A stretch of DNA of 64,000 nt, taken from NCBI RefSeq assembly GCF_029581195.1, contig NZ_CP120737.1:4565001-4629000 (forward strand), given 5' to 3'. Under the pieces are notes generated by a model. That model had not been told where the DNA came from, searched no databases, and saw only the letters and a list, made by a program, of their open reading frames with translations. Positions 6,021 to 27,102 of the stretch are shown here, piece by piece. Source of the DNA: Solwaraspora sp. WMMD791 (GTDB lineage: Bacteria; Actinomycetota; Actinomycetes; Mycobacteriales; Micromonosporaceae). Position 1 is the first letter of the stretch. The number at the start of each line of letters is the position of its first letter. Made by a program: the position numbers and the translations under genes.

Positions 6021-7261
6021 TGGGAGACCCGACGCGATCCTTCGGCCTGACGCGATCCTTCGGCCTGACGCGATCCACCGGCCCGACGCCATCCACCCGG
6101 GCGGCGGCCCTCCTCGCCGCCGGCACGCTGCTCCTGGTCACCGGCTGCGGCGGCGACCGGGCCGACGAGGCGGCCCCGGCCACCGCCGCGGCCGAAGCGT
6201 CGGACGCGGCGAACCCGTCGGCATCGGCCGCCGCGAGCCCGTCCGCCGACCCGGAGCCGGTGTCGTTCACCGAGGGCGGCGGGGCTGCGGCCCGCGACAC
6301 CGTCGCACCCGGCGCGATCGTGGTGCAGACCCTCACCGATGAGGAACTCGTCCTCTACAGCGTCGGCGACGACGGCACGGTGACCGAGAACTGGCGCTTC
6401 ACCCCCAAGGTGTACGCCGACAACCCGGTCCAGGACGTGGCGAGCAGCCAGCTCCGACGGGAGGACTTCACCCCGGACTACCGGCAGCTGGTCGTGATCC
6501 GCAAGGAAGCGGCCGAGCCGATCGGCTTCACCACCCGGGTGGGGCTGCTCGCCATCGACGGCACCTTCACCGATCTGTCCGGATACGGCGCGACCGACCC
6601 GGACAAGGCGGTCCAGTCCCACCCCGCCGTGCACCACGCCACCGCTCGGCTCTGGTACTGGCAGTATCAGGACCGGCAACGGCGGCTCATGTCGGTGGGC
6701 CTCGACGGGCAGGACCGCCGGCACGAGGCAGCGACCCAGGAGAAGCTGCCCAGGACCGTCGTCGGCCAACCGTTCTACTTCCCGCACTCCGCCGTCGCGG
6801 TGCCGACGTACGACGACGGCAAGGTGATGGTCGTCGACGACACCGGTACGGTCGCCGCCAAGTACGTCCTGGCCGGTGCCGGCGCCCACATCGGTGACCC
6901 GTACCAGATCGCCGACGCGCCCCGCTTCGCCTCGCCCGGTTACAGGCTGGTCAGCTGGGTCGACGAGCAGACGCTGCTGGCGTACGCCCAGGACCAGGTC
7001 TACGCCCTGACGATCGCCGGGTCGGCGTTGACCGAGCAGGCGTTGATCACCGACTCCGACGGGCCTCGGCGGCCGGCGATCCGGCAGGCCGCGTTGAGCC
7101 CCGACGCGACCCAGGTGCTGCTGGCCAGCGGCGTGGTCGACGACCTCGACGTGACCCAGTTCAGCCTGCTGCCGATCGACGGCGGCGAGGCGGCACCCCT
7201 CGCCCAGGTGGCCCCCGGGGCCGGCCGGGTCGGCGACCAGATCGTCGGGTGGGAGTCGTGA
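6020..7261 (+). CDS. Lipoprotein with probable beta-propeller fold
   Basis: 413 residues from ATG 6020. The N-terminus carries a short imperfect repeat (RSFGLT twice, from an 18-bp DNA repeat at about 6032-6075), then a hydrophobic segment and lipobox LLLVTGC (Cys near 41). An Ala/Ser/Pro linker leads to a domain of about 340 residues with regularly spaced short beta segments (for example LVLYSVGDDGTVTENW, GLLAIDGTFTDLSG, VMVVDDTGTVAAKYVL, TQVLLASGVVDDLD), which reads like a WD/TolB-type propeller. It heads a run of membrane protein genes and probably works with them at the cell surface. Role unknown. Confidence 0.75.
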   Translation: MGDPTRSFGLTRSFGLTRSTGPTPSTRAAALLAAGTLLLVTGCGGDRADEAAPATAAAEASDAANPSASAAASPSADPEPVSFTEGGGAAARDTVAPGAIVVQTLTDEELVLYSVGDDGTVTENWRFTPKVYADNPVQDVASSQLRREDFTPDYRQLVVIRKEAAEPIGFTTRVGLLAIDGTFTDLSGYGATDPDKAVQSHPAVHHATARLWYWQYQDRQRRLMSVGLDGQDRRHEAATQEKLPRTVVGQPFYFPHSAVAVPTYDDGKVMVVDDTGTVAAKYVLAGAGAHIGDPYQIADAPRFASPGYRLVSWVDEQTLLAYAQDQVYALTIAGSALTEQALITDSDGPRRPAIRQAALSPDATQVLLASGVVDDLDVTQFSLLPIDGGEAAPLAQVAPGAGRVGDQIVGWES

Positions 7262-7277
7262 CCGACGGGGTACCGCG

Positions 7278-7892
7278 GTGAACCCGCGCGGCTACTTCAT
7301 CCGGCTCGGTCCGTCCCGCTGGTGGTACGTGGTCGGGCTGGGACTGTGGGTGGCGGGCTTCGTCGGCCTGTTCGGGTACGGCTACACCCTGCAGTCGCAG
7401 CGCGACGCCGCCGCTGAGACGTTGTACCGTGCCGCCCTCGCCGAACCGGTCGTCGTGCAGGTCACCGAGGCCGGCGGGTACGGCGTCTGGCTGGAGACCA
7501 CCGTCGGCGGTGAGCGTCCGGAGTCCGTGCGGCGGCTGCTCGACTCGGCGCAGGTCCGGCTGGTCGACGTCCGGGTGACCGGACCCGACGGCGATCCGGT
7601 GCCGGTCGGGCCGACCTTCGGCAACGACCATCGGGTGACCACCGCGTCGGCGCAACTGCAGGGCTGGGGCATCGGGGAGATGACCCTCACCCCCGGCGAG
7701 TACCAGATCACGCTCGCCGACGCTGAGGCGTACACCGGTCCCGGTGTCGCCGGGCTGGCGGTCGGTCCGCTGCCGACGGCCGCCGACGGCCGGGTCTTCG
7801 CCGGCGGCCTGCTCACCTCGGTGGCCGGCCTGCTGGTGTGCCTGATGACGGTGGTGCTGCGCCAACGCGCCACCCGCCGCGCAAGCATGTGA
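7278..7892 (+). CDS. Membrane protein with two transmembrane helices
   Basis: 204 residues from GTG 7278, 16 bases after the lipoprotein stop. One helix lies at about residues 15-35 (WWYVVGLGLWVAGFVGLFGYGY) and another near 173-195 (VAGLLVCLMTVVL), with an exported domain of about 135 residues between them containing 'LSPGEYQITL'-like beta strands. This is the layout of a membrane-bound sensor or assembly factor. No family recognised. Co-directional with neighbours; probably one transcription unit from 5631 to 9292. Confidence 0.7.
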   Translation: MNPRGYFIRLGPSRWWYVVGLGLWVAGFVGLFGYGYTLQSQRDAAAETLYRAALAEPVVVQVTEAGGYGVWLETTVGGERPESVRRLLDSAQVRLVDVRVTGPDGDPVPVGPTFGNDHRVTTASAQLQGWGIGEMTLTPGEYQITLADAEAYTGPGVAGLAVGPLPTAADGRVFAGGLLTSVAGLLVCLMTVVLRQRATRRASM

Positions 7893-7928
7893 CGACACGA
7901 CGCCCTGACCGAACGGAGGTGGGACCCG

Positions 7929-8462
7929 GTGGATCCGGACAAGCCGCTGCAGTCACTGAGTGAATCCGAGCTGAGCAGCGCCCGGTGGGGCGGGGTGAGC
8001 GGCGCCGAGCAGGAGACCCACCGGCGCGAGCTGGAACGCCAGCTGCGGGAACGGGAGGCCAACCCTGACCCCGTCCCCGTGCGGCGACCGGGCCGGGGAC
8101 CGGCCGCCGGTGTCGGCACCGGCTGGCTGTGGAACCTGCTGCTGCTGGTGCTGCCGGTGGTCGTTCTGGGTGCCGTGCTGTCCGGGCTGACCCGGGGTAC
8201 GGCCTGGCTGGCCACGGAGTCGGTGCTGGCACCGCTGTTTCCCGCGCCGGGCGACAGCCCGGCCCGGTACCTGCTGTCGCTGGTGACGTTGCTGGTCCTG
8301 GTGCCGGGCAGCCTGGCGGTGCTCGCCGCCCGGCTGCAGCCGACCGCGCTGCGGTTGCCCGCCCGGCTGATCCTGATGCCGGCGGCCCTGCTGCTGGTGC
8401 CGGTGGTCTGCTACGTCACCGAGCTCACCGCCACCGCCGACCTGATGAGGTTGCCGTCGTGA
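7929..8462 (+). CDS. Three-helix membrane protein
   Basis: 177 residues from GTG 7929 with GGAGGTGGG upstream. A charged cytoplasmic N-terminus of about 60 residues (heptad-like 'QETHRRELERQLREREA') is followed by three hydrophobic segments (about 65-85, 112-133 and 142-160). The last codon overlaps the GTG of the next gene. Unknown function. Confidence 0.7.
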   Translation: MDPDKPLQSLSESELSSARWGGVSGAEQETHRRELERQLREREANPDPVPVRRPGRGPAAGVGTGWLWNLLLLVLPVVVLGAVLSGLTRGTAWLATESVLAPLFPAPGDSPARYLLSLVTLLVLVPGSLAVLAARLQPTALRLPARLILMPAALLLVPVVCYVTELTATADLMRLPS

Positions 8463-9292
8463 CCGTACTGCTGCAGTTGGTCTCCCGGTTCGGGCCGTCG
8501 CTGCGCGGCCTGCTCACCGCCGGGCTGGCCGCCGCCGGTGGGCTGTTGCTGCTGCTCGGCTCGGTGCTGCCGTGGGTCGGCGGTCCCGACGCCGACGCGG
8601 TGACGTACGGTGCCGCCGCGACCGGGACCGGGTCGGCGCTCGGCTCGCGCGCGGGTCTGGCCGGCGGGGACGCGTTCGTGACCCTGCTGGCCGGTGTCGT
8701 CGCCGTGGCAGTCGCCGCCTGGTACGCACTGGGTCGGGCCCGGCGCTGGCAACAGGTGACCCTGGCCGGTGCCGGGCTCCTGGCGCTCAGCTGGGCGATG
8801 CTGAACCAGGCGGAGATCGGTGACGTGGCCGGCCCAGACGGGGCCACATTGGACATCAGCCCGGGCGTCGGGGTGTACGTCGCGATCCTCGCCGCGGTGC
8901 TGGTGATCGGTGCCGCCGTCGCCGCACCCCGCGACGTCGAGCACGATCTGCGGGTGCTGGGCCAGCGGGCGGAGCAGCTGGTCCGCCGAGGGCTGGGGTT
9001 CGAGGCGGTCGAGAAGCAGCAGCAGCTGCTGCGCCGCGCCCGGCGTCGGCCGGGCTGGGACGATCCCCGGTTGACGTTCGAGGCGTTGTACCTGGCCCGG
9101 CTCTATCTGATCGTTGGGCACGTCGACCGGGGCGTCCAGCTGGTGCACGAGGTGATGGCCCAGGCGCCGCAGCGGTTCGGCGACGACCACGAAGGGTTGG
9201 AAATGGCCAGGGCCGAGGCCGGCGGCATCGTCGCGGACGCCAACGCCCAGCTCGCGGCCGTCCGACAACAGCTAGGCATGCCGTACGGCTGA
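8459..9292 (+). CDS. Membrane protein with cytoplasmic helical tail
   Basis: 277 residues from GTG 8459, which overlaps the preceding TGA by 4 bases (GTGA), giving coupled translation. Four likely transmembrane segments occupy residues about 10-150 (LLTAGLAAAGGLLLLLG, AFVTLLAGVVAVAVAAWYAL, LAGAGLLALSWAM, VGVYVAILAAVLVIGAAV). The last 110 residues are soluble and helical, with EAVEKQQQLLRRARR and repeats typical of short TPR-like pairs. Last gene of the 5631-9292 run. Unknown function. Confidence 0.7.
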   Translation: MTVLLQLVSRFGPSLRGLLTAGLAAAGGLLLLLGSVLPWVGGPDADAVTYGAAATGTGSALGSRAGLAGGDAFVTLLAGVVAVAVAAWYALGRARRWQQVTLAGAGLLALSWAMLNQAEIGDVAGPDGATLDISPGVGVYVAILAAVLVIGAAVAAPRDVEHDLRVLGQRAEQLVRRGLGFEAVEKQQQLLRRARRRPGWDDPRLTFEALYLARLYLIVGHVDRGVQLVHEVMAQAPQRFGDDHEGLEMARAEAGGIVADANAQLAAVRQQLGMPYG

Positions 9293-9521
9293 CCGCGCCG
9301 CGCCGCGACCGACCGACCGGCGTGGCAGGTGGCCGTACGGCTGACGACGCGAAACGCCGGCCCAGGGTTTCCGACCGTCACCGGGCCGGGTATGGGGCTG
9401 ACCCATGCCGAACCACGACGGGCGCAGGCACACCGCCGGTCCCGTCCGGACGAAAGGTCACCGTCATGCCGAACCACCCTCCATCCCGCGTCAGCGCCGA
9501 CACCCGGCCGGCGGTGCGCCG

Positions 9522-9941
9522 ATGAGCGCCCCGACCGAGCCGGCGACCGTCGACGCGTGCCTGCGCCTGGGCGCGGGCTTCGGCCAGCGTGACCGCGCAT
9601 GGATCGTGACCGAGTTCTCCGCCATCGACAGCCGGCTGACGACGTTCCCGGCTGACAGCACCGAGCTGGAGCTGTCGGTGAAGGACCGCGAGTCGCGCGG
9701 GCAGAAGGTCACCCTGGAGTGCTGGATCGCTGGCTGGCCGAAGATCGTCACCACGTCGACGGAGGAGGATCTCCGGGCGGCACTGCACGACGTACGCGAC
9801 GATCTGCGCCGGCGGCTCAACGACACGAAGACCCGGCAGGAACCGCGCAACAACCGGCACCTGCGGGACACCGGCCCGGATCCGCAGGACGCCGGCCCGG
9901 AGCTGAGCGACCCGGCCGCCGCGGTGGATCGGACCGACTGA
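9522..9941 (+). CDS. HPF/RaiA-like ribosome-associated protein
   Basis: 139 residues from ATG 9522. The middle (about residues 15-110) has the strand-helix pattern of the S30AE/HPF domain: 'FSAIDSRLTTF', 'TELELSVKDRESRGQKVTLECWIAGWPKIVTTSTE', then 'DLRAALHDVRDDLRRRLNDTK'. In this family the domain binds the 30S decoding site during stationary phase. It is shorter than actinobacterial long HPF, which has a C-terminal dimerisation domain; here the tail is a Pro/Asp-rich extension. Assignment rests on pattern only and is moderate. Confidence 0.55.
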   Translation: MSAPTEPATVDACLRLGAGFGQRDRAWIVTEFSAIDSRLTTFPADSTELELSVKDRESRGQKVTLECWIAGWPKIVTTSTEEDLRAALHDVRDDLRRRLNDTKTRQEPRNNRHLRDTGPDPQDAGPELSDPAAAVDRTD

Positions 9942-17960: not shown

Positions 17961-18494
17961 TCAAACGACGGCGCGGGTCGCGACGACACTGACGAAAGCA
18001 CTGGACCTGCCGGACTCGAACCTGCCGTCGTAGTGGTCCAACTTCTCGATGTGCCAGCCGGTGAGCAACCGACGGATGTACTGCTCATCGAAGAAATGCC
18101 GGACATGGCCGTTGAGGCTGAAGATCCGAGGGCCGAACTGCTCGCCCTTCCCGTAGGCCGGGTCGGCGGTCGACTTGACACAGAAGACCAGGATGCCGCC
18201 GGGCCGCAGCACCCTGCCGATCTCATCGAACACGTGCTGGGTGGTCGGCTCGATGAAATAGTGCAGCGCGAGGTGCGAGTAGACCCCGTCGAAGCGGTCG
18301 GTGGCGAACGGGAGGCCCGTGGCGACATCGTGTACGCGGAGTTCGGTCACTGCCGCGTCCGGCTGACCCGATCGTTCCGGTACGCGGGCCCGTGCCAGCC
18401 GGATCGCTTCCGACGAGAGGTCCACCCCGGTGACGTGGTAGCCGGCCTGTGCGATCGCCTGCAGGTCGTGGCCCTGCCCGAGGCATGCCAGCTA
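17961..18494 (-). pseudogene. Class I SAM methyltransferase, N-terminally truncated
   Basis: Residues of the SAM fold are readable: 'LACLGQGHDLQAIAQAGYHVTGVDLS' type motif I-II region, then 'LPFATDRFDGVYSHLALHYF', 'EIGRVLRPGGILVF' and a C-terminal half. In the same frame a TAG at 18492-18494 directly precedes 'LACLGQGHD', where intact relatives have VLDLACGxGxD with 30-40 residues before it. The largest possible product (154 aa from 18425) lacks motif I and could not bind SAM normally. Hence a gene remnant. Confidence 0.7.
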
Positions 18495-18975
18495 TCCCAG
18501 GGTGCTGGTCAGGGAGGGGTTCGACGCTCAGCAGGTGACCTCCGTCGGCAGGTGACTGGTGATGCCGTGCCTGAGGAGATTATCAGCGAGCCCAGAGTGC
18601 CCGGATGGCGTCGCGCGCGTGGCAGGGCCCAGGACGGTGCAGGGGCTGACGTACCCGGTGCTGCCGGGTGGAATCCGGCTTTCGGCCGAACCTGGGCCGT
18701 GTCTGCACAACGCCGTTGATTCCGGGTTTGGTGCTGAATACTTCCTCCTGCGGTACACCGGCAATTCTTGTGACGAATATTGCCAAGTTCGGTTTGAATG
18801 ACCGGGGGACTCACCGAGGTTACGTCGCTCAACGTATTTACATCCTTGCTTCGTGCTGCGGACGCTGTTAGCCTCTGTCCACGGCCCGATCGGGGGTGGC
18901 CAGTGGTTTTCAGTGACCTGATTTACGCAAGCTGGGAAGTCTCGATCACAAAGCTGGGACGTTCATGTCAATCAC
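18495..18975. other. Gene-free stretch between methyltransferase remnant and MFS gene
   Basis: 480 bases. Short frames exist on both strands but none has a ribosome site, a family signature or consistent codon use. The last 100 bases, lower in GC, presumably hold the promoter of the exporter/peptidase/RiPP genes; no clear -35/-10 pair stands out. Confidence 0.5.
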
Positions 18976-20298
18976 GTGGTGTTGCTGATGTCAGCCGCAT
19001 CCATGGCGGGCGAATCGTCGGCCGAGACCATTAGGAAGCGGGATTTCCGGCTCTATTGGATTGCTGGAGCCGTCGATCAGCTCGGGTCGCAGACCTCCGG
19101 CATCGTCTTTCCACTGGTGACCTTGGCGATCACTGGTTCGCCGGCGGCCGCCGGCCTGGTCGGTGCGGCGGCCCTGGTCGGTCGGCTGGTCGCCGCACCA
19201 GCGGCCGGCGTACTGGCCGACCGTCTACCCCGCAAGGTCATGATGGTGACATCCCTGCTGGTGGCGGGCGCAGTCATGGGCGGGCTGTTCGTCGGGGTCG
19301 CCACCGGCGCCGCCACGCTCGCGGTGCTCGTCGGCGCGGCCTTCGTCGAAGGATTGGCGCAGAGCGGGTACGAGGCCGCCGGTGCCGGTGCCATCCGGCG
19401 GGTGCTGCCCGCCGACGACAAACGGGCGCTCTCAAGATTGGAGGCCCGCAATCATGCCGTACAGATCGTGGGTCCGGTCTTTGGCGGCGCGCTTTATCAA
19501 ATCGGCCGCTGGGTTCCATTCCTGGTGGACGCGGTCTCGTACGTGGTGTCCGCACTGCTGGTGTCGGCGATCCGTACCGATCTGACGCCGACCCGCAGCG
19601 AGCGCACGTCGTTTCTCGCCGACCTGCGCGACGGCCTGCGGTTCGTATGGAACCAGCCGTTCCTAAGATTCGTGACAATCTGGGCCGCCGGGATCAATTT
19701 CACCTTCGGGGCCCTGATCTATTTCGCGATCCTCACCGCTGGTCGGGAAGGTGCGCCGGCCGCGTCGATCGGATTGATTCTCACCGTCGCCAGCGTCGGC
19801 GGTCTGACCGGTGCGCTGGCCGCGCCGGCGGTGTTCAGCCGGGTCCGGCCCATGACCGTCGTCGTGGTCGCATCCTGGGCGATGGTGGCGCTGGTGGTGG
19901 CGTTGTCCCAGGCCCGGCAGACCTGGACGTACGGTCTGCTGTTCGGCCTGGTGTTCCTGCTCAGCCCGCTGCTCGGGGTGATCTTCCAGGCGCGGGTCAT
20001 CGCGCTCACACCGGACGAGCTGCAGGGCCGGGTGGGCACCGTGATGGGTACCGCCGGTGAGGTGCTGCAGACCCCGGCACCACTACTGGCCGGGCTGCTG
20101 GTCGCCTGGTACAGCCCGACGGCGGTCGCGTTGATCTTCGCGGCCGCGCTGGCCGCTCTGGCCACGTACACCACGGTCAACCTGCGGCAGCTGCGGGCCG
20201 GCGCGGACGAAGAAGAGGTCGAGCCCGAGCCCGAGTCGGAGCCGGAGTCCGGGTCCGGGACACAGCCGGAGTCACAGGTCGAGGAGGCACGTCGATGA
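18976..20298 (+). CDS. MFS exporter (EntS-like), in RiPP cluster
   Basis: About 440 residues with 12 hydrophobic segments. 'GVLADRLPRKVMMVTS' is the MFS loop 2-3 motif, and 'DFRLYWIAGAVDQLGSQ' is typical of the DHA3/EntS-type exporters of peptides and siderophores. The C-terminal tail is a EPEPESEPESGSG low-complexity run. Start is uncertain: GTG 18976, ATG 18988 or ATG 19003 are all in frame. Its stop overlaps the S9 peptidase ATG (ATGA), so they are co-translated. Beside a RiPP precursor, export of the finished peptide is the likely role. Confidence 0.85.
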   Translation: MVLLMSAASMAGESSAETIRKRDFRLYWIAGAVDQLGSQTSGIVFPLVTLAITGSPAAAGLVGAAALVGRLVAAPAAGVLADRLPRKVMMVTSLLVAGAVMGGLFVGVATGAATLAVLVGAAFVEGLAQSGYEAAGAGAIRRVLPADDKRALSRLEARNHAVQIVGPVFGGALYQIGRWVPFLVDAVSYVVSALLVSAIRTDLTPTRSERTSFLADLRDGLRFVWNQPFLRFVTIWAAGINFTFGALIYFAILTAGREGAPAASIGLILTVASVGGLTGALAAPAVFSRVRPMTVVVVASWAMVALVVALSQARQTWTYGLLFGLVFLLSPLLGVIFQARVIALTPDELQGRVGTVMGTAGEVLQTPAPLLAGLLVAWYSPTAVALIFAAALAALATYTTVNLRQLRAGADEEEVEPEPESEPESGSGTQPESQVEEARR

Positions 20299-22154
20299 GT
20301 CGCGAGTACCGGCTGTTCTACCCGGCGCTGCCGGTCGTCGCCGAACACGCACCGCACCGGCTGGTCTACGTCGGTGACGCCGACGGGCGGTGCCAGATCT
20401 TCGCCTGGGACCGCCGGGCCGGTGCCCTGACCCAGCTGACCGACCGGCCGACCGGCACGATCCGGGCCGCGCTCGACCCGGCCGGTGAGACCGTGTGGTG
20501 GTTCGACGACGACCTGGCCGGGGTCGGTGTCTGGCGTACCACCGATTTTCCCGACAGCCCTGCCGCGACGACGCCGGCATCCGCCGCAGCCGGCCCGGCG
20601 GAGGGCACGGCGGCGGCGTCGGTGCCGGCGCTGCCCGGAGTGGCACCCGCCCGGCACGCGGGCATCGCGATGGCCGACGACGGCACCGCCCTGGTCGGGC
20701 TCGCCGACGACGACGGCCTGACGCTGCACCGCCGGGAGCCGGACGGCCGGATCACCGAGGTGACCCGGATCGACGGGTACGCGTACCTGGTCGACCTGGA
20801 TCCGTCGGGTGAGCTCGCTGTGGTCGGCGCGGACGCGGCGGCACCCGACGCGGTCACCGTCCTGGACCGCGACGGTACGCCGGTCGGCCGGATCGCCGGC
20901 CGTACCGGTCGGCGGGTCTGGGCGCTGGGCTTCGCCCCCGGCGGTGGTGTGGCCAGGTTGCTGCTGGTGATCGAGTCCGACGGGCGGTACTGCCCGGCGA
21001 CCTGGACCGCCGACGGCGGACTGACCACCTACGACTGGTGCTGGTACGACACCGAGATCACCGCGAGCTGGTTCCCGGACGGGCGGCGCATCCTCATCCG
21101 GCAGGACCGGTACGCGCGGACGGTTCTGCACGAGGCGGACCTCACCGCCCGTACCAGTGTGGTGTCGCCGACCCCGGCCGGCAGCGTGCTCGACGCGGCG
21201 GTCTGGCCCGACGGCGAGATCGTCTACATCTGGACGGATTCGCTGACGCCGCCGCAGCTGCGGTCGGCGGGCGGAGTGCGGCTGCCCGACGGTGGGGCCG
21301 AACCGGATCCTGCCGCGGCGGCACCGGTGGACGACTACCAGCGTCGCGAGCTGTGGGTGCCGGGTCCGGGCGGGCGGATCCACGTCCTGCTGACCGTGCC
21401 GAACGACGGTCGCACCACCCATCCGGCCGTCTTCCTGGTCCACGGCGGGCCGTCCCAGCATGCCCGGGACGCCTACGACCCGCTGGTGGAGGTGCTGGCC
21501 AGCACCGGATGCGCGGTGGTGCGGGTCAACTACCGGGGGTCCAGCGGCTACGGCTCGGCCTGGCGCAACGACTTCAGCGACGGGGTCGGGCTGACCCAGA
21601 TCGCCGACCTGGCGGCGGTCCGCGAACACCTGGTGACGGCCGGCACCATCGAGTCCGGTCGGGTCGCCCTGTGGGGTACGTCGTGGGGTGGCTACCTGAC
21701 GCTGCTGGCCCTCGGGGTGCAGCCGCAGCTGTGGCGGCTGGGGGTGGCGATCAGCCCGGTCGCCGACTACGTCGCCGCCTTCCACGCTGCCTCGCCGGCG
21801 GTCCAGGCCCTGGACGTGACGCTGTTCGGTGGCAGCCCGCAGCAGGTGCCTCAGGCGTACGCCCGGTCGTCGCCGGTGACCTACGTCGACCAGGTCCGGG
21901 CGCCGGTGCTGCTCGCCGTCTCCAGCGACGACGTGCGCTGCCCGCCGGAGCCGGTGGAGCGGTACGCGGGTCTGCTCGCGGCGCGGCGGGTGCCGCACCA
22001 GGTGGTCCGGCGGCGGGCCGGGCACGACGACTTCGACGCGCGCAGCCATCTCGCGTTGATGCAGACCGTGCTGCTGTTCATGCAGCGGCACTTCGACGGC
22101 GTGCAGGAGGAGGGAACCCCGGTCGCGCTTGCGATGGCCAGGCCGGTCGGTTGA
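20295..22154 (+). CDS. S9 family prolyl oligopeptidase, probable leader protease of the RiPP cluster
   Basis: 619 residues. The N-terminal 330 residues are a beta-propeller with repeats such as 'GDADGRCQIFAWDRRAG' and 'DPAGETVWWFDDD'. The C-terminal alpha/beta-hydrolase domain has 'VFLVHGGPSQHARDAYDP', nucleophile Ser in WGTSWGGYLTL, Asp in VSSDDVRCPPE and His in RAGHDDFD, so the triad is complete. There is no signal peptide, so cytosolic. S9 enzymes cut short peptides, which fits removal of a leader from the 33-residue precursor encoded next. Translationally coupled to the exporter. Confidence 0.88.
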   Translation: MSREYRLFYPALPVVAEHAPHRLVYVGDADGRCQIFAWDRRAGALTQLTDRPTGTIRAALDPAGETVWWFDDDLAGVGVWRTTDFPDSPAATTPASAAAGPAEGTAAASVPALPGVAPARHAGIAMADDGTALVGLADDDGLTLHRREPDGRITEVTRIDGYAYLVDLDPSGELAVVGADAAAPDAVTVLDRDGTPVGRIAGRTGRRVWALGFAPGGGVARLLLVIESDGRYCPATWTADGGLTTYDWCWYDTEITASWFPDGRRILIRQDRYARTVLHEADLTARTSVVSPTPAGSVLDAAVWPDGEIVYIWTDSLTPPQLRSAGGVRLPDGGAEPDPAAAAPVDDYQRRELWVPGPGGRIHVLLTVPNDGRTTHPAVFLVHGGPSQHARDAYDPLVEVLASTGCAVVRVNYRGSSGYGSAWRNDFSDGVGLTQIADLAAVREHLVTAGTIESGRVALWGTSWGGYLTLLALGVQPQLWRLGVAISPVADYVAAFHAASPAVQALDVTLFGGSPQQVPQAYARSSPVTYVDQVRAPVLLAVSSDDVRCPPEPVERYAGLLAARRVPHQVVRRRAGHDDFDARSHLALMQTVLLFMQRHFDGVQEEGTPVALAMARPVG

Positions 22155-22207
22155 CCCGACTCCCGCACGTTGACAGGTCCATGTCGATCGGAGGGGAGGT
22201 GAACAGC

Positions 22208-22309
22208 ATGCGGAAGAACGTTGTCGAGAACGACCCGATCAACGGCAACCGCGACCAGCTTCGCAGCGCGGGCATCCAGGTCACGGTCACGGTCAAGATC
22301 AAGTTCTGA
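22208..22309 (+). CDS. RiPP precursor peptide candidate, 33 residues
   Basis: ATG 22208 is preceded by a very strong ribosome site (CGGAGGGGAGGTG). The peptide starts MRKNVVENDPINGNRDQ and ends QVTVTVKIKF. A polar, charged N-terminal part of about 22 residues is leader-like; the last nine residues alternate beta-branched and polar or charged residues and form a core-like segment. It sits 53 bases after the peptidase stop and 183 bases before the radical SAM gene, the usual place for a precursor. I know of no named family for this sequence. Function as substrate is inferred from position, size and layout. Confidence 0.65.
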   Translation: MRKNVVENDPINGNRDQLRSAGIQVTVTVKIKF

Positions 22310-22324
22310 TCCGGCCGTACGGGG

Positions 22325-22373
22325 TGGAGGCGGGCGGACCACCGCTTTCTGCCGGAGCGGCCGACCGCCTCCA
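22325..22373 (+). terminator. Hairpin between precursor and radical SAM genes
   Basis: TGGAGGCGG (22325-22333) and CCGCCTCCA (22365-22373) are perfect complements, with a further GC-rich hairpin (GGCGGAC / CGGAGC region) in the loop. It starts 16 bases after the precursor stop. Such a partial terminator commonly lets precursor mRNA exceed that of the modifying enzymes. Confidence 0.5.
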
Positions 22374-22492
22374 TCCACTGCCTGCCGGAGAGCCTCGCGC
22401 CGGAGTCTCACCGGGCGGAAGGCGCACCGCACGCGAAGCCCATCGCCGAGCGAGTCCCATCGGAACGAGTCCTACGAGGAAAAGAAGGGCAC

Positions 22493-24469
22493 ATGCGGAT
22501 CCTGCTGGTCAACATGCCGTGGTCATCGATCGATGTCCCGTCGCTGGCGTTGGGCATCCTCACCAACAGCGTCCGTCAGAAGGTGCCGGACGCACAGGTC
22601 GACGTGATGCACGCCAACCTCGACTTCGTCGACTGGGTGGTCGAGCGCACCGAGTTCGGCCTGAGCGACTACTACTACTATTCGCTGTTCACCTACTTCT
22701 CCGGCTGCGGTGACTGGGTCTTCTCCTCCGCTCTCTACGACGATCCGCAGTGGCGGGTCGACGAGTTCGTCAGTCGGGTGCAGGGCCAGATGTCCGAGCG
22801 GGACCTGAGCCGAAACCTGGAGCTGCACCGTACGGTGCCCGAGTTCGTCGCCGAGGTGGCCGCCCGCATCGTCGAGCGGGAGCCGGACATCGTCGGGTTC
22901 ACCTCGACCTTCCAGCAGAACGCCGCCGCCCTGGCCACCGCACGCGCGGTCAAGCGGCTCAACCCGCGGATCCGTACCGTGCTCGGTGGCGCCAACTGCG
23001 ACGGCGAGCAGGGCGCGGCGATGCACCGCAACTTCTCCTTCGTCGACTACGTGGTACGCGGCGAAGGCGAGGCGGCGTTCCCGAAGCTGCTGACCGCCCT
23101 GCGCGACGCGGACACCGACACCGACACGGACACCGACAGCCGGCCTGATCTGGCCGGGATCGAAGGTCTCTGCTGGGCCGACGCCGCCGGACGGCACGTG
23201 GCCAACCCGATGAGCACCGCCCCGCTGCCGCCGGCCGAGATCGTCAGCCCCGACTACACCGGTTACTTCGAGCGGTTGGCCAGCTCGCGGGCCAACCACT
23301 GGGTCGAACCCCGGCTGGTCGTCGAAGGTGCCCGGGGCTGCTGGTGGGGCGAGAAACACCACTGCACGTTCTGCGGCCTCAACGGGTCGTTCATGCAGTT
23401 CCGCAGCAAGCATCCGGGGCGGTTCTACGACGAGATCATCGAGCTGGTGCAGCGGCACCAGGTGCTGGACATGTTCGTCGTCGACAACATCCTCGACATG
23501 AGTTACGTGACCTCGCTACTGCCCCGGCTGGCCGAGTCCGGCTACGACCTGCGGCTGCAGTACGAGATCAAGTCGAACATGCGCGGCCCTCAGGTGCAGG
23601 CGCTGGCCGACGCCGGCCTGGTCAGCGTGCAGCCCGGCATCGAGAACCTGAACAGCCGGGTGCTCAAGATCATGGACAAGGGGGTGACCGGCTGCCTCAA
23701 CGTGCGGATGCTGCGCGACGCCGAGACCAGCGGCATCACCATCGCCTGGAACTACCTGTACGGCTTCCCCGGCGAGACCGACGCCGACTACCGGTCGATC
23801 ATCGAACAGATGCCGGCCCTGCACCACCTCTGCCCGGCCGACGGCAGCACCCGGATCGCCATCGAGCGGTTCAGCCCGTACTTCGTCAACCCGGCACTCG
23901 GCTTCACCGACCTGCGCCCGGCCGCCCAGTACCGGCTCATCTACGACCTGCCCGAATCCGAACTGATGGACCTGGCGTACATCTTCGACACCCCGACCCA
24001 GGGCATCGGTGAGGATGTCGGCGACGAACTGGACCGGGCCGTCACCCACTGGCAGCACGAGTACGCCCGTAGCCGGCTCACCCACCACGACCTCGGGGAC
24101 GAGATCGTGCTGGTCAGCCAGCGCCGGCACTTCGACTGGCACGTGCTGCGGCTGACCGACCCGGCCGAGATCGCCGCCTTCCGCCAACTGGACCAGCCGC
24201 ACAGCGTCGCCTCGCTGGCCCGGCGCATCGACGTACCGGAACCGGCCGTCGCCGCGCTGCTGGCCCGCTGGCGGGAACTCGGCATCGTCTTCGTCGACGC
24301 GGACCAGTTCATCCAGATCGCGCCGAAGGCGATGAACCAGGAGCTGATCCGCATCGACCACCTGCGTCAGGAGCGGGCCGCCGCGCAGGCCGAGGCGGCG
24401 TCCGCCGACGCCGTCGGGGCGGCCGGGGCCGCCGTACCGGAGCCCGTGCCCGCGCTCACCGCCGTCTGA
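22493..24469 (+). CDS. B12-binding radical SAM RiPP maturation C-methyltransferase
   Basis: 658 residues from ATG 22493 (GAAGGG upstream). Residues about 1-200 are a B12-binding-like Rossmann domain (MRILLVNMPWSSIDVPSLALG ... IVGFTSTFQQN ... VLGGANCDGEQG). The radical SAM cluster motif is C283-x7-C291-x2-C294 (GCWWGEKHHCTFCGLNG), the unusual spacing that marks the RiPP-maturation group often called rSAM_ocin_1. 'SVQPGIENLNSRVLKIMDKG' and 'WNYLYGFPGETDADY' complete the barrel. The C-terminal 130 residues look like a winged helix (SVASLARRIDVPEPAVAALLARW), possibly for leader recognition. The family is thought to methylate unactivated carbons in peptides. Upstream peptide is the probable substrate. 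A DTDTDTDTD run lies in the linker. Confidence 0.9.
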   Translation: MRILLVNMPWSSIDVPSLALGILTNSVRQKVPDAQVDVMHANLDFVDWVVERTEFGLSDYYYYSLFTYFSGCGDWVFSSALYDDPQWRVDEFVSRVQGQMSERDLSRNLELHRTVPEFVAEVAARIVEREPDIVGFTSTFQQNAAALATARAVKRLNPRIRTVLGGANCDGEQGAAMHRNFSFVDYVVRGEGEAAFPKLLTALRDADTDTDTDTDSRPDLAGIEGLCWADAAGRHVANPMSTAPLPPAEIVSPDYTGYFERLASSRANHWVEPRLVVEGARGCWWGEKHHCTFCGLNGSFMQFRSKHPGRFYDEIIELVQRHQVLDMFVVDNILDMSYVTSLLPRLAESGYDLRLQYEIKSNMRGPQVQALADAGLVSVQPGIENLNSRVLKIMDKGVTGCLNVRMLRDAETSGITIAWNYLYGFPGETDADYRSIIEQMPALHHLCPADGSTRIAIERFSPYFVNPALGFTDLRPAAQYRLIYDLPESELMDLAYIFDTPTQGIGEDVGDELDRAVTHWQHEYARSRLTHHDLGDEIVLVSQRRHFDWHVLRLTDPAEIAAFRQLDQPHSVASLARRIDVPEPAVAALLARWRELGIVFVDADQFIQIAPKAMNQELIRIDHLRQERAAAQAEAASADAVGAAGAAVPEPVPALTAV

Positions 24470-24482
24470 CAGGAGCAGGCCG

Positions 24483-25172
24483 TTGACCATCACCCCCGTC
24501 GCCGCCGGGCCGCACCGGCCGATCACCGTACGGCGGCATCGCGACCATGATCCGGCGGTGGCCGACATTCCCGGCATCGACCTGGGCCCGGCCGAGGTGA
24601 CCGGCCCGGTCGGCGACGCCGTCGCCGACTGGCACGCCGACGGCGTCCGCAAGCTCGCCCTGCCCGGCGTCGTCGATCTCACCGTGGACGATCCGGCGGC
24701 GGCGGCCGACGCGGTACGCCGACTCGTGCTGGTCCGGGAGGCGACCAGTTACGCCATCGAGGTCGACTGGTCGGTGCGGCTGCCCGGTGGCGACGACGAC
24801 CTGTGGCGGGTGTACGGGCATCTGCGCCCGCCGGTCGCCGTCGAGCTGGCGGGGGCCGACACCGCGGCGTCGACGGCGGCCACCACCGCCTGGCGGGACG
24901 CCTTCTACTTCGACAAGTGCACCTACCGCCAGGGCCCGGGTTTCGTGCAGGTACGCGACCGGCGCACCGGTCAGCTGAACCTGCTGACCATCGACGACCC
25001 GGCGTACCTCGCCGTGTTGGCGCAACTGGTCGACGGCGCTCCGGTCACCGACGTGGACATCGACATCGCCCGCGAGTTCGGTGAGGAGGGCCTGGTCACG
25101 AAGGTGGGGGACCAGCTGGTGTGGCTGCCGCACCGGCTGCGTCGCTGGCCGCTGCCGTCGATGGTGATCTGA
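24483..25172 (+). CDS. RiPP-cluster partner protein (DUF5825-like)
   Basis: 229 residues from TTG 24483 with AGGAG 7 bases upstream, 13 bases after the radical SAM stop. No membrane segment. The second half has 'AWRDAFYFDKCTYRQGPGFVQVRD' and ends 'EFGEEGLVTKVGDQLVWLPHRLRRW', which resembles the end of winged-helix RRE/PqqD-like domains. From memory this kind of protein (DUF5825) regularly accompanies actinobacterial radical SAM RiPP genes; that link should be searched. Likely helps bind the precursor. Its last 77 bases overlap the end of the convergent glycosyltransferase gene. Confidence 0.7.
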   Translation: MTITPVAAGPHRPITVRRHRDHDPAVADIPGIDLGPAEVTGPVGDAVADWHADGVRKLALPGVVDLTVDDPAAAADAVRRLVLVREATSYAIEVDWSVRLPGGDDDLWRVYGHLRPPVAVELAGADTAASTAATTAWRDAFYFDKCTYRQGPGFVQVRDRRTGQLNLLTIDDPAYLAVLAQLVDGAPVTDVDIDIAREFGEEGLVTKVGDQLVWLPHRLRRWPLPSMVI

Positions 25173-27102
25173 CCGGGTCGGCCATCGCGTCCGGCGGCAC
25201 CCCCGGCCAACGGGCGTACGCACTGTCCACGAAGTACGCCTCGCCGGGATCCCAGGTGTGCCCGGTGGGCCGGCGGTGGTACAGGTAGCCGAGCGGATGG
25301 GTGCGGTAGACGCTCGCCCCCGCCGCTCGCAGCCGTTCGATCAGTCCGAGGTCGACCGAGCGGGGCACCGGCCGCCACCCGCCGACGGCCTCCAGATCGC
25401 CCTTGGCGAGCAGCATCGTGCCGCCGGCCACCACGTCGCCGTACGCTTCGGGCACCCCGGAGCTGCGGCGAAGGGTGACACCCTCACGTTCCAGGTGGAC
25501 GAGCTCGGCGCCCTTGCCGACCAGCACCGCTCCGGAGTAGTGCCGGGCCAGGACCAGGTCCCAGACGTGTTCGACACCGTAGCTGTCGTCGTCGTCGAAC
25601 TTCGTCACCAGGGTGCCCCGGGCGCGCCGGGTCACCGCGCCGAGTGCCGCACCGAAGTCGGCGCTGGCCGGCAGCCGGACCACCTCGAACGGCCGGCCGC
25701 AGTCGGACAGCGCCCGGCGGGCCGACTCGGGCAGCTCGATTCCGTGCAGCCCGAGGACGATCTCCAACTCCGGATAGGTCTGCGCGGCGATTGCGGCCAG
25801 CGCCGCCGGCACCAGTTCCGCCCGGCGGGTGACCAGGATCGCGCTGACCGAGGGCGGCTGGCCGAGCACTGGCAGCCCACCGGTGGCCAGGGCGGGCAGC
25901 CGCAGCCCGGCGGCGTGCCCGCGCAGCGCGGCCCGGCGCTGCCGTACGCTGCGCGCCTCGACGGCCAGCGCGGCCCCGGCCGGGTCGTCGGGGTCGGGGG
26001 TGGGCGGCGGTGCGCACACCAGTGCCCGCAGGTCCGGGTCGAGCAGGTCGGCGACGGCCGGTGGCAGGACCGGGGCGTGCAGCAGCACTCCGGTGGCGGC
26101 GAGTTGCACCAGCAGCCCGGCGGTCTGCGCCGGGTGTTCGCCCGGCACCAGCCGACAGTGCACCACGCGGACCTGGCGCAGCGCGGCGAGGGCGGTCGCG
26201 CCCAGGCCGGGCCCGGTCAGCGCCCCGTGCAACGTGGGCCCGCCGGCTGGTCCGGCGGCTGGCCCGCTGGCTGTTCCGGCACGGAACCGGGCCGCCGACC
26301 GGCCGCCCCGGGCGAATTCCAGGGTGGCCTCGGGTGCCTGCGACCGGTACGCCGTCACCGGTCGACCCCGTGGGTTGATCCGGGTGGCGTCGACGAGCAC
26401 CATCGGCGCACCCTCGGTGACGGTGACGCGGTGCCCGCTGCCGGCCAGTACGGTGCCGGCGCTGCCGGCCGGCACGGTGCCGATGTCGTCGGGTCGATGG
26501 GCCGGCGGTGTCGGGGTGACGACCAGGTCATAGGCGCGGATCTCGTCACGGGCGGTGAGTTCACCGGTGGTGACGGTCGCGGTCGCCGGGAGGAACGTCG
26601 GCCCGCCACCGACCCCGCCGCCGCTTCGGCCGGGTACGACGCCGGCGACGTCCGGGCTGCCGGGGGCCGGCATCGGCCGGGCGCCGTCCAGGGCGTTCAG
26701 CGCAGACCGTACCGCGTCGCGCAGCGGCACCGGGGCGGCGACGGCGAGCCGGACGGTGGCCGCGCCCCGACGCAGCCGGGGCAGCCCCACCCGGTGCCGG
26801 CGCAGTCGCGGCAGCATGCCGACCGTGCCGCCCCAGCCGACCCGGGGGGACCGCCACCAGGCGACGACCACGGTCACCGAGCGTACCGGCGAGCCGGCGG
26901 CCGGATGGTGGGTCAGGTCGCGGAGCCGGTCCACCGTGCCGGCGACGACGAGCGCCTGCCCGGTCCCGGGTACGCGCAGCACCCGCAGGCCCACGGCGCG
27001 GCCCAGCCGTTCGGCGGGACGCGGCGGGGCGAGCCCGCGTAGTCGCCAGGTGACCTCGACGCCGGCCGGCCCGCTGGTGTCGGATCCGGCACCACGTGTC
27101 AC
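25096..27102 (-). CDS. Large protein with C-terminal family-2 glycosyltransferase domain
   Basis: 668 residues from GTG 27102, which has GGGAGGAG 8 bases upstream and overlaps the upstream gene's TGA (GTGA). The C-terminal 270 residues are a GT-A fold: 'SVSAILVTRRAELVPAALAAIAAQT', 'VTKFDDDDSYGVEHV' (the DDD metal site) and 'VAGGTMLLAKGDLEAVGGW'. The first 380 residues are a domain I do not recognise, with Arg/Ala/Gly-rich stretches and 'PVLVDATRINPRGRPVTAYR'. The Ala/Pro-rich tail is read from DNA that is also the 3' end of the partner gene on the other strand. Probably transfers a sugar to cell surface material. Confidence 0.8.
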   Translation of the reverse strand: MTRGAGSDTSGPAGVEVTWRLRGLAPPRPAERLGRAVGLRVLRVPGTGQALVVAGTVDRLRDLTHHPAAGSPVRSVTVVVAWWRSPRVGWGGTVGMLPRLRRHRVGLPRLRRGAATVRLAVAAPVPLRDAVRSALNALDGARPMPAPGSPDVAGVVPGRSGGGVGGGPTFLPATATVTTGELTARDEIRAYDLVVTPTPPAHRPDDIGTVPAGSAGTVLAGSGHRVTVTEGAPMVLVDATRINPRGRPVTAYRSQAPEATLEFARGGRSAARFRAGTASGPAAGPAGGPTLHGALTGPGLGATALAALRQVRVVHCRLVPGEHPAQTAGLLVQLAATGVLLHAPVLPPAVADLLDPDLRALVCAPPPTPDPDDPAGAALAVEARSVRQRRAALRGHAAGLRLPALATGGLPVLGQPPSVSAILVTRRAELVPAALAAIAAQTYPELEIVLGLHGIELPESARRALSDCGRPFEVVRLPASADFGAALGAVTRRARGTLVTKFDDDDSYGVEHVWDLVLARHYSGAVLVGKGAELVHLEREGVTLRRSSGVPEAYGDVVAGGTMLLAKGDLEAVGGWRPVPRSVDLGLIERLRAAGASVYRTHPLGYLYHRRPTGHTWDPGEAYFVDSAYARWPGVPPDAMADPVRSPSTAAASDAAGAAATPAGPPPS

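Follow-up and report, generated by a model that had tools for sequence, protein, structure and literature searches.

A predicted clavusporin-type operon with its own precursor peptide in Solwaraspora sp. WMMD791

The clavusporins of Streptomyces clavuligerus are reportedly hydrophobic peptides that carry several C-methylations, and the operon behind them is said to be widespread in actinomycetes. They have been called peptide surfactants promoting bacterial development. Clavusporin biosynthesis involves a B12 radical S-adenosylmethionine (SAM) enzyme paired with a DUF5825 protein, which C-methylates amino acids (PMC12257519), and an S9 peptidase, MpcP, which takes part in leader removal (PMC12951456). 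Other described enzymes of this chemistry are PoyC and PoyB of the polytheonamide pathway and the bottromycin C-methyltransferases, B12 radical SAM enzymes that methylate carbons of Val, Ile and other side chains, PoyC being said to carry a Cx7Cx2C motif (PMC11285071). Here, we analyzed a 64,000-nucleotide stretch of the Solwaraspora sp. WMMD791 genome (hereafter the window; NZ_CP120737.1, positions 4,565,001 to 4,629,000), in which a short peptide gene, a radical SAM gene and a DUF5825 gene follow genes for a major facilitator superfamily (MFS) exporter and an S9 peptidase. We consider it very likely that these five genes form a clavusporin-type operon for a ribosomally synthesized and post-translationally modified peptide (RiPP) and make a C-methylated, surface-active peptide by the whole mechanism proposed below.

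Comparison with S. clavuligerus revealed a counterpart on pSCL4, which, judged by its gene types and by S. clavuligerus being the reported producer, is presumably the published mpc cluster. Its order is MFS, S9 peptidase (the two overlapping by four bases), precursor, radical SAM and DUF5825, and the precursor, MQKDVIHNDPLAGDEENRKPSVGITITVPFRNAEDADED, sits just 5' of the radical SAM gene while being absent from the gene table, itself incomplete by its own description. The window proteins are 38% (MFS), 42% (S9 peptidase), 62% (radical SAM) and 42% (DUF5825) identical to those of pSCL4, and the two loci share the gene order, a leader with K3 and NDP[LI], a core of alternating hydrophobic residues and a hairpin after the precursor. 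In contrast to pSCL4, the window precursor has no Pro between leader and core, no VPF segment and no acidic tail, its core ending C-terminally in KIKF, and the window radical SAM enzyme falls outside the Streptomyces clade of S. clavuligerus, in a Micromonosporaceae clade of its own. Since the enzymes and the layout match the clavusporin pathway, the window operon appears, on sequence comparison, to be a new relative of a known kind of system with its own peptide sequence, and not a new class. The preliminary description had proposed a new RiPP cluster with an undescribed product; the first part is to be withdrawn, as counterparts of both the enzyme pair and the peptidase have already been published, and the second stands only within the literature searched, which misses most subscription papers and in which neither the peptide words looked for nor a product of this core was found.

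Two further kinds of system bear a more distant likeness. PoyC, PoyB and the bottromycin enzymes, likened to the window enzyme by their description, act on precursors of other RiPP classes. The biphenomycin-like clusters with a YHxYxY motif contain a multinuclear non-heme iron-dependent oxidative enzyme (MNIO), a B12 radical SAM enzyme that cross-links two aromatic residues, and DUF5825 (PMC12257519). These clusters and the window both have a B12 radical SAM gene adjoining a DUF5825 gene, but the window operon has neither an MNIO nor a second radical SAM gene, and its precursor motif is unrelated. An MNIO/biphenomycin type was thus rejected for the window, neither an MNIO nor a second B12 radical SAM enzyme being among the five genes of the operon. 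The type was found in two of the compared loci (L090 and L097), where an MNIO gene (PF05114) and a second radical SAM gene stand beside the DUF5825 pair, 5' of the radical SAM gene.

The precursor gene (22208..22309, forward strand) runs from ATG 22208 to the stop at 22307–22309 and encodes 33 residues, MRKNVVENDPINGNRDQLRSAGIQVTVTVKIKF, with a leader MRKNVVENDPINGNRDQLR and a proposed core (S)AGIQVTVTVKIKF that rest on profile and homology; its unmodified monoisotopic mass is computed at 3739.03 Da. A Shine-Dalgarno motif recognized in the sequence, GGAGGGGAGG (22190..22199, forward strand), lies 8 nt 5' of the ATG, in agreement with the earlier claim of a 33-residue peptide with a strong ribosome site ahead of the radical SAM gene. 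The frame is open from 20813, for nearly 500 residues, and the open reading frame (ORF) alone is therefore no evidence for a gene. With a profile of 45 Streptomyces-type precursors, the window peptide came out on top among the 1230 stretches of the window (E = 4.8e-4, the next at 4.1), and the best of 32,814 stretches in the reversed-sequence control reached E = 8.1. A 16-row precursor profile gave the peptide as the sole match at E ≤ 10 in the whole 6.93-Mb genome, at a modest E of 0.009. In support of the earlier proposal that the peptide is the substrate precursor, we infer from these searches that it is a real precursor. Furthermore, a peptide with the same leader lies 93–222 bases 5' of the orthologous radical SAM gene in L002–L007 and L026 (183 bases in the window), the first 19 residues being identical in all eight precursors and the amino-acid changes all falling after them; L007 and L026 belong to other genera than the window.

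The frame offers two other starts, GTG 22199 and ATG 22181, which were rejected because the homologues align from the equivalent of ATG 22208. At that place 60 of 64 unique precursors begin with M-x-[KR], the four exceptions being readings of L024/L104 in which the script took an internal GTG; as the script selected starts by their closeness to the NDP motif, some of this agreement follows from the procedure itself. Homology thus favours ATG 22208 as the predicted start. None of five precursors was matched by the NCBIfam models, and, given also the missing entry in the S. clavuligerus gene table, such precursors are easily overlooked.

The radical SAM gene (22493..24469, forward strand) encodes a predicted B12-binding-type C-methyltransferase of 658 residues, which matches TIGR03975 over its full length (profile positions 1–605 of 606; E = 3.5e-187, 623.6 bits against a curated cut-off of 281.85) and the Pfam families B12-binding and Radical_SAM above their cut-offs. 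Its CX7CX2C motif is CWWGEKHHCTFC at residues 283–294, and the same spacing occurs in all 103 radical SAM proteins of at least 550 residues that were read. The preliminary description had named just such an enzyme and placed it in a family that matures RiPPs by C-methylation, and both assignments hold, the latter by the TIGR03975 score far above cut-off. The model of another RiPP radical SAM family, ApyD, gave 63 bits against a cut-off of 750, and the one marginal PADLOC match was to this enzyme (E = 8.3e-4). Within the genus, an orthologue of at least 86% identity is present in six of seven genomes, the window's included, the other five being L002–L006. Three of the seven genomes (G001, G004 and G005) hold further radical SAM relatives at 57–58% and 45–46% identity, and G002 holds a single further one at 45%.

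The co-directional DUF5825-like partner described earlier was likewise recovered (24483..25172, forward strand; 229 residues from a TTG start; PF19142, E = 1.9e-63) and is the sole copy in the genome. In every one of 86 compared loci the DUF5825 gene lies directly 3' of the radical SAM gene, 11–230 nt after the radical SAM match, although the family is rare: among 394 genomes sampled from the class, 16 have it (15 above cut-off), and none of 14 controls does. In L099 (Streptomyces silaceus; 7001–9541), both proteins are read in one stop-free frame of 847 residues, which, unless the draft sequence is wrong there, would be a natural fusion; such a fusion argues for joint action of the two proteins. 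When a fold like that of the RiPP recognition element was considered for DUF5825, no PDB chain matched up to E 10 and Pfam returned DUF5825 for 47 of 47 members; the same Pfam scan otherwise gave six families, each in one member and at E 0.06 or worse.

The compared loci come from one scan of named genomes, which supplied the best 80 of 585 confirmed relatives; with five plasmid loci and the window they make 86, among which L022/L080, L023/L038 and L024/L104 are near-duplicates and some contigs end early. A radical SAM and a DUF5825 gene are found in all 86, an S9 peptidase in 67 and an MFS match in 64. By script, 56 of the MFS matches end at most 200 bases from the peptidase match; three (L050, L058 and L078) fall outside this limit, their peptidase being only partly matched, and five (L024, L100, L101, L102 and L104) sit elsewhere and are of low identity. 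For 59 of the 67 peptidase loci a precursor position is available, and in all of these the precursor lies no more than about 120 bases from the end of the peptidase ORF. Related peptides beside homologous radical SAM genes, which the preliminary description had asked for, were found in most of the 85 loci L021–L105: 63 by motif and 7 more by profile, with none in the other 15.

Several loci hold peptides that depart from the common arrangement. L024 (6500–6928) and L104 each have two tandem precursors ending in Phe before the radical SAM gene, LVTVGVSVSF and VISVMVVVSF in L024, and L061 (6599–6898) has two unlike tandem precursors in one operon, of the GVSVKVTIPLRN and GVSVSVSRRRN types. The precursors of L009 (1243–1341) and L010 (1236–1334, on the strand of the enzyme) have the endings VVVVVVIIVRR and VIVVVVVIVRR, respectively, which resemble a designed surfactant peptide in joining a cationic head to a hydrophobic tail. 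A 60-residue peptide with five YK[VI] repeats lies 5' of a 50%-identical radical SAM gene in L017 (1242–1424) and is perhaps a multi-core precursor of another kind. In L073, a small peptide, MKKDVVHDDPKGKANKPYRMVLVYK, begins at 9805, 3' of the DUF5825 gene, and is possibly a precursor in an unusual place.

In a radical SAM tree of 95 rows, built by a quick method, the window enzyme falls in a nine-row Micromonosporaceae clade (support 100) and that of S. clavuligerus in a separate 64-row Streptomyces clade (support 99). Eleven loci were left out of the tree as duplicates, distant or partial (L001, L011, L015–L020, L060, L080 and L101); its label 'nd' takes in L033, L044, L054, L057, L062, L066 and L079, for which the profile did recover precursors, and L012 was grouped as RR by its ending despite a leader of the MKRR type. 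The label given to precursors ending in Phe needs three changes on the tree and covers the clade of the window together with L008/L069 and L024/L104, so this ending extends beyond that clade. Nine unique precursors are of the window type, including two from Actinokineospora and Saccharothrix that the tree places elsewhere; all nine end in Phe and none has a Pro outside NDP. Streptomyces-type precursors, in contrast, have a Pro at the border of leader and core in 37 of 45 cases and an acidic tail (at least three acidic residues in the last ten) in 43 of 45. The window precursor keeps the NDP leader, lacks the Pro site and the acidic tail, and carries a strictly alternating hydrophobic and polar core, GIQVTVTVKIKF, at the very C-terminus. 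The strand moment of this core is reached by about 0.2% of shuffles, those of the other eight window-type precursors by 0.1–0.2%, and those of nine S. clavuligerus-like cores tested by 0.6–1.0%. Such alternation would be expected of an amphipathic strand; it is a feature of the predicted sequence and no measure of surface activity.

Upstream of the precursor, the MFS exporter gene (18976..20298, forward strand; 440 residues; PF07690, E = 2.5e-30; the GTG start is that of the ORF tool and provisional) and the gene of the S9 (prolyl-oligopeptidase family) peptidase, the proposed leader peptidase (20295..22154, forward strand; PF00326, E = 2.6e-34; GTSWGG and GHDDFD motifs), overlap by 4 nt (ATGA), as expected from the coupling noted earlier. 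By sequence, the solved chains closest to the peptidase are acylaminoacyl-releasing enzymes (best E = 1.6e-27). The membership of both genes in the operon is drawn from L111, a locus of another genus in the same family, where the DNA homology within 17 kb corresponds to window positions 19039–22340 and 22491–25172; these limits fit an operon of five genes that includes exporter and peptidase. A scan of 18500–25400 for promoters and terminators gave no promoter; a single terminator-like site was found, on the minus strand, where shuffled sequences have 1.6 on average. Outside the operon, at 17961–18520 on the minus strand, lies a remnant that resembles a class I SAM methyltransferase and is interrupted by stops in the N-terminal part.

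With regard to leader removal, 58 of the 60 unique precursors counted carry an Arg 4–12 residues C-terminal to NDP; four misread L024/L104 entries were dropped from this count. The two precursors without this Arg are those of L029 and L047/L051, loci that yielded no S9 peptidase. We propose, with low confidence and from this pattern, that the window leader may be cut at or near the conserved Arg. The product of such a cleavage, SAGIQVTVTVKIKF, would give a computed [M+2H]2+ of 745.951 without methylation and of 752.959, 759.966, 766.974 or 773.982 with one to four methyl groups.

Between the precursor and enzyme genes, a hairpin is predicted in the RNA (22322..22376, forward strand; −39.9 kcal/mol, z = −2.92, with 3 of 200 shuffles as good), with no T-run after it. 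The hairpin is conserved in position: folding of up to 100 bases 3' of the precursor gave z < −2 in 58 of 71 loci versus 6 of 142 radical SAM coding controls; as the control is coding sequence, this contrast may partly reflect gaps in general, and the related loci are not independent. Five duplicates were excluded from the test by name, as was any locus that lacked a motif precursor or whose gap was shorter than 50 bases, contained an N or was a repeat of another. The consensus stem of seven close relatives has 16 pairs, of which 4 are double-changed, while 7 are disrupted or gapped in one or more of the sequences.

Taken together, the operon would work as follows. The precursor would consist of the conserved leader and a C-terminal core that alternates hydrophobic beta-branched and polar residues. 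The radical SAM enzyme, together with DUF5825, which may serve as a leader-binding or scaffold partner, would abstract hydrogen from unactivated side-chain carbons, most likely the C-beta of Val and Ile, where methyl groups would be installed from methylcobalamin. The leader would then be cut off by the S9 peptidase, most likely at the conserved Arg that closes it or close by, and a C-methylated peptide of 12–14 residues ending in KIKF would be exported by the MFS protein. With one hydrophobic and one polar or cationic face, this peptide would be surface active, and we propose it as a candidate wetting agent or morphogen for mycelial development. The hairpin may keep the precursor transcript in excess. 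C-methylation and leader removal are here carried over by analogy from published work on relatives.

Three other explanations were weighed against this mechanism. The near-500-residue open frame and the modest genome-wide E value would fit a chance ORF, the enzyme then using another substrate; yet the top rank in the window, the sole match in the genome, the good ribosome site and the identical leaders at an equivalent place in L002–L007 and L026 speak for a precursor, and we rejected this explanation on the profile tests as extremely unlikely. That the enzyme performs other chemistry on the peptide, such as a cross-link or an epimerisation, has a precedent in the aromatic cross-linking ascribed to the biphenomycin-like enzyme (PMC12257519). 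However, the window enzyme is closely akin to that of S. clavuligerus and scores far above the C-methyltransferase cut-off and far below that of ApyD, and the core lacks Cys and contains a single aromatic residue, which leaves other chemistry very improbable.

The third explanation concerns the activity of the product. A cationic, aromatic-ended beta-strand, VTVTVKIKF, could act on the membranes of competitors, the C-methylated peptide then being antimicrobial or a signal and not a surfactant. The two Lys and the C-terminal Phe are kept in the six genus members with the operon and in L007, the acidic tail is lacking, and exporter and peptidase belong to the operon, all of which would suit such a role. 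Against it, the closest characterized relatives are called peptide surfactants promoting bacterial development; apart from the exporter, none of the five genes resembles an immunity gene; and among relatives that end in a similar way the last residues are VSF, VKF or VGF, with fewer Lys or none. We therefore regard an antimicrobial or signalling peptide as unlikely. We are similarly doubtful of a broader proposal, in which the Micromonosporaceae lineage would have turned the clavusporin machinery to a cationic, C-methylated Val/Ile beta-strand with a KIKF end and no tail to trim, cut by an S9 peptidase that reads Arg and not Pro, and would act on membranes or as a signal in place of simple wetting.

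A number of results weigh against a C-methylated, surface-active product made by the proposed mechanism. Fifteen of the 85 loci L021–L105 yielded no precursor by motif or profile, among them L049 and L070, which start close to a contig end, and L090 and L097, which are of the other cluster type. The DUF5825 profile had no match among solved PDB chains up to E 10. Codon changes per pair of close precursors amount to 0–4 synonymous and 0–7 non-synonymous, and purifying selection on the core is not evident. With no Pro between NDP and core, the cleavage site is not simply transferable from the Streptomyces type; and in L024/L104, outside the 60 precursors counted and with no S9 peptidase found nearby, one of the two precursors has the Arg and one does not, which weakens the link between Arg and peptidase. 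The missing acidic tail and the more cationic KIKF end mean that the activity of the window peptide may differ. Lastly, the hairpin is weak in the close relatives L002 (z = −1.46) and L006 (z = −1.17), and its covariation term is negligible (−0.06).

Loci of this type occur beyond Streptomyces, in Micromonosporaceae, Pseudonocardiaceae and others, and combine a common leader with a core that is particular to each. Their natural cores, such as GITITVPF, VTVTVKIKF, VEVSVSVSVGF and VVVVVVIIVRR, offer a ready set for learning which positions are methylated and what role the alternating strand plays, and the apparent fusion in L099 would provide a single-chain form of both enzymes for study.

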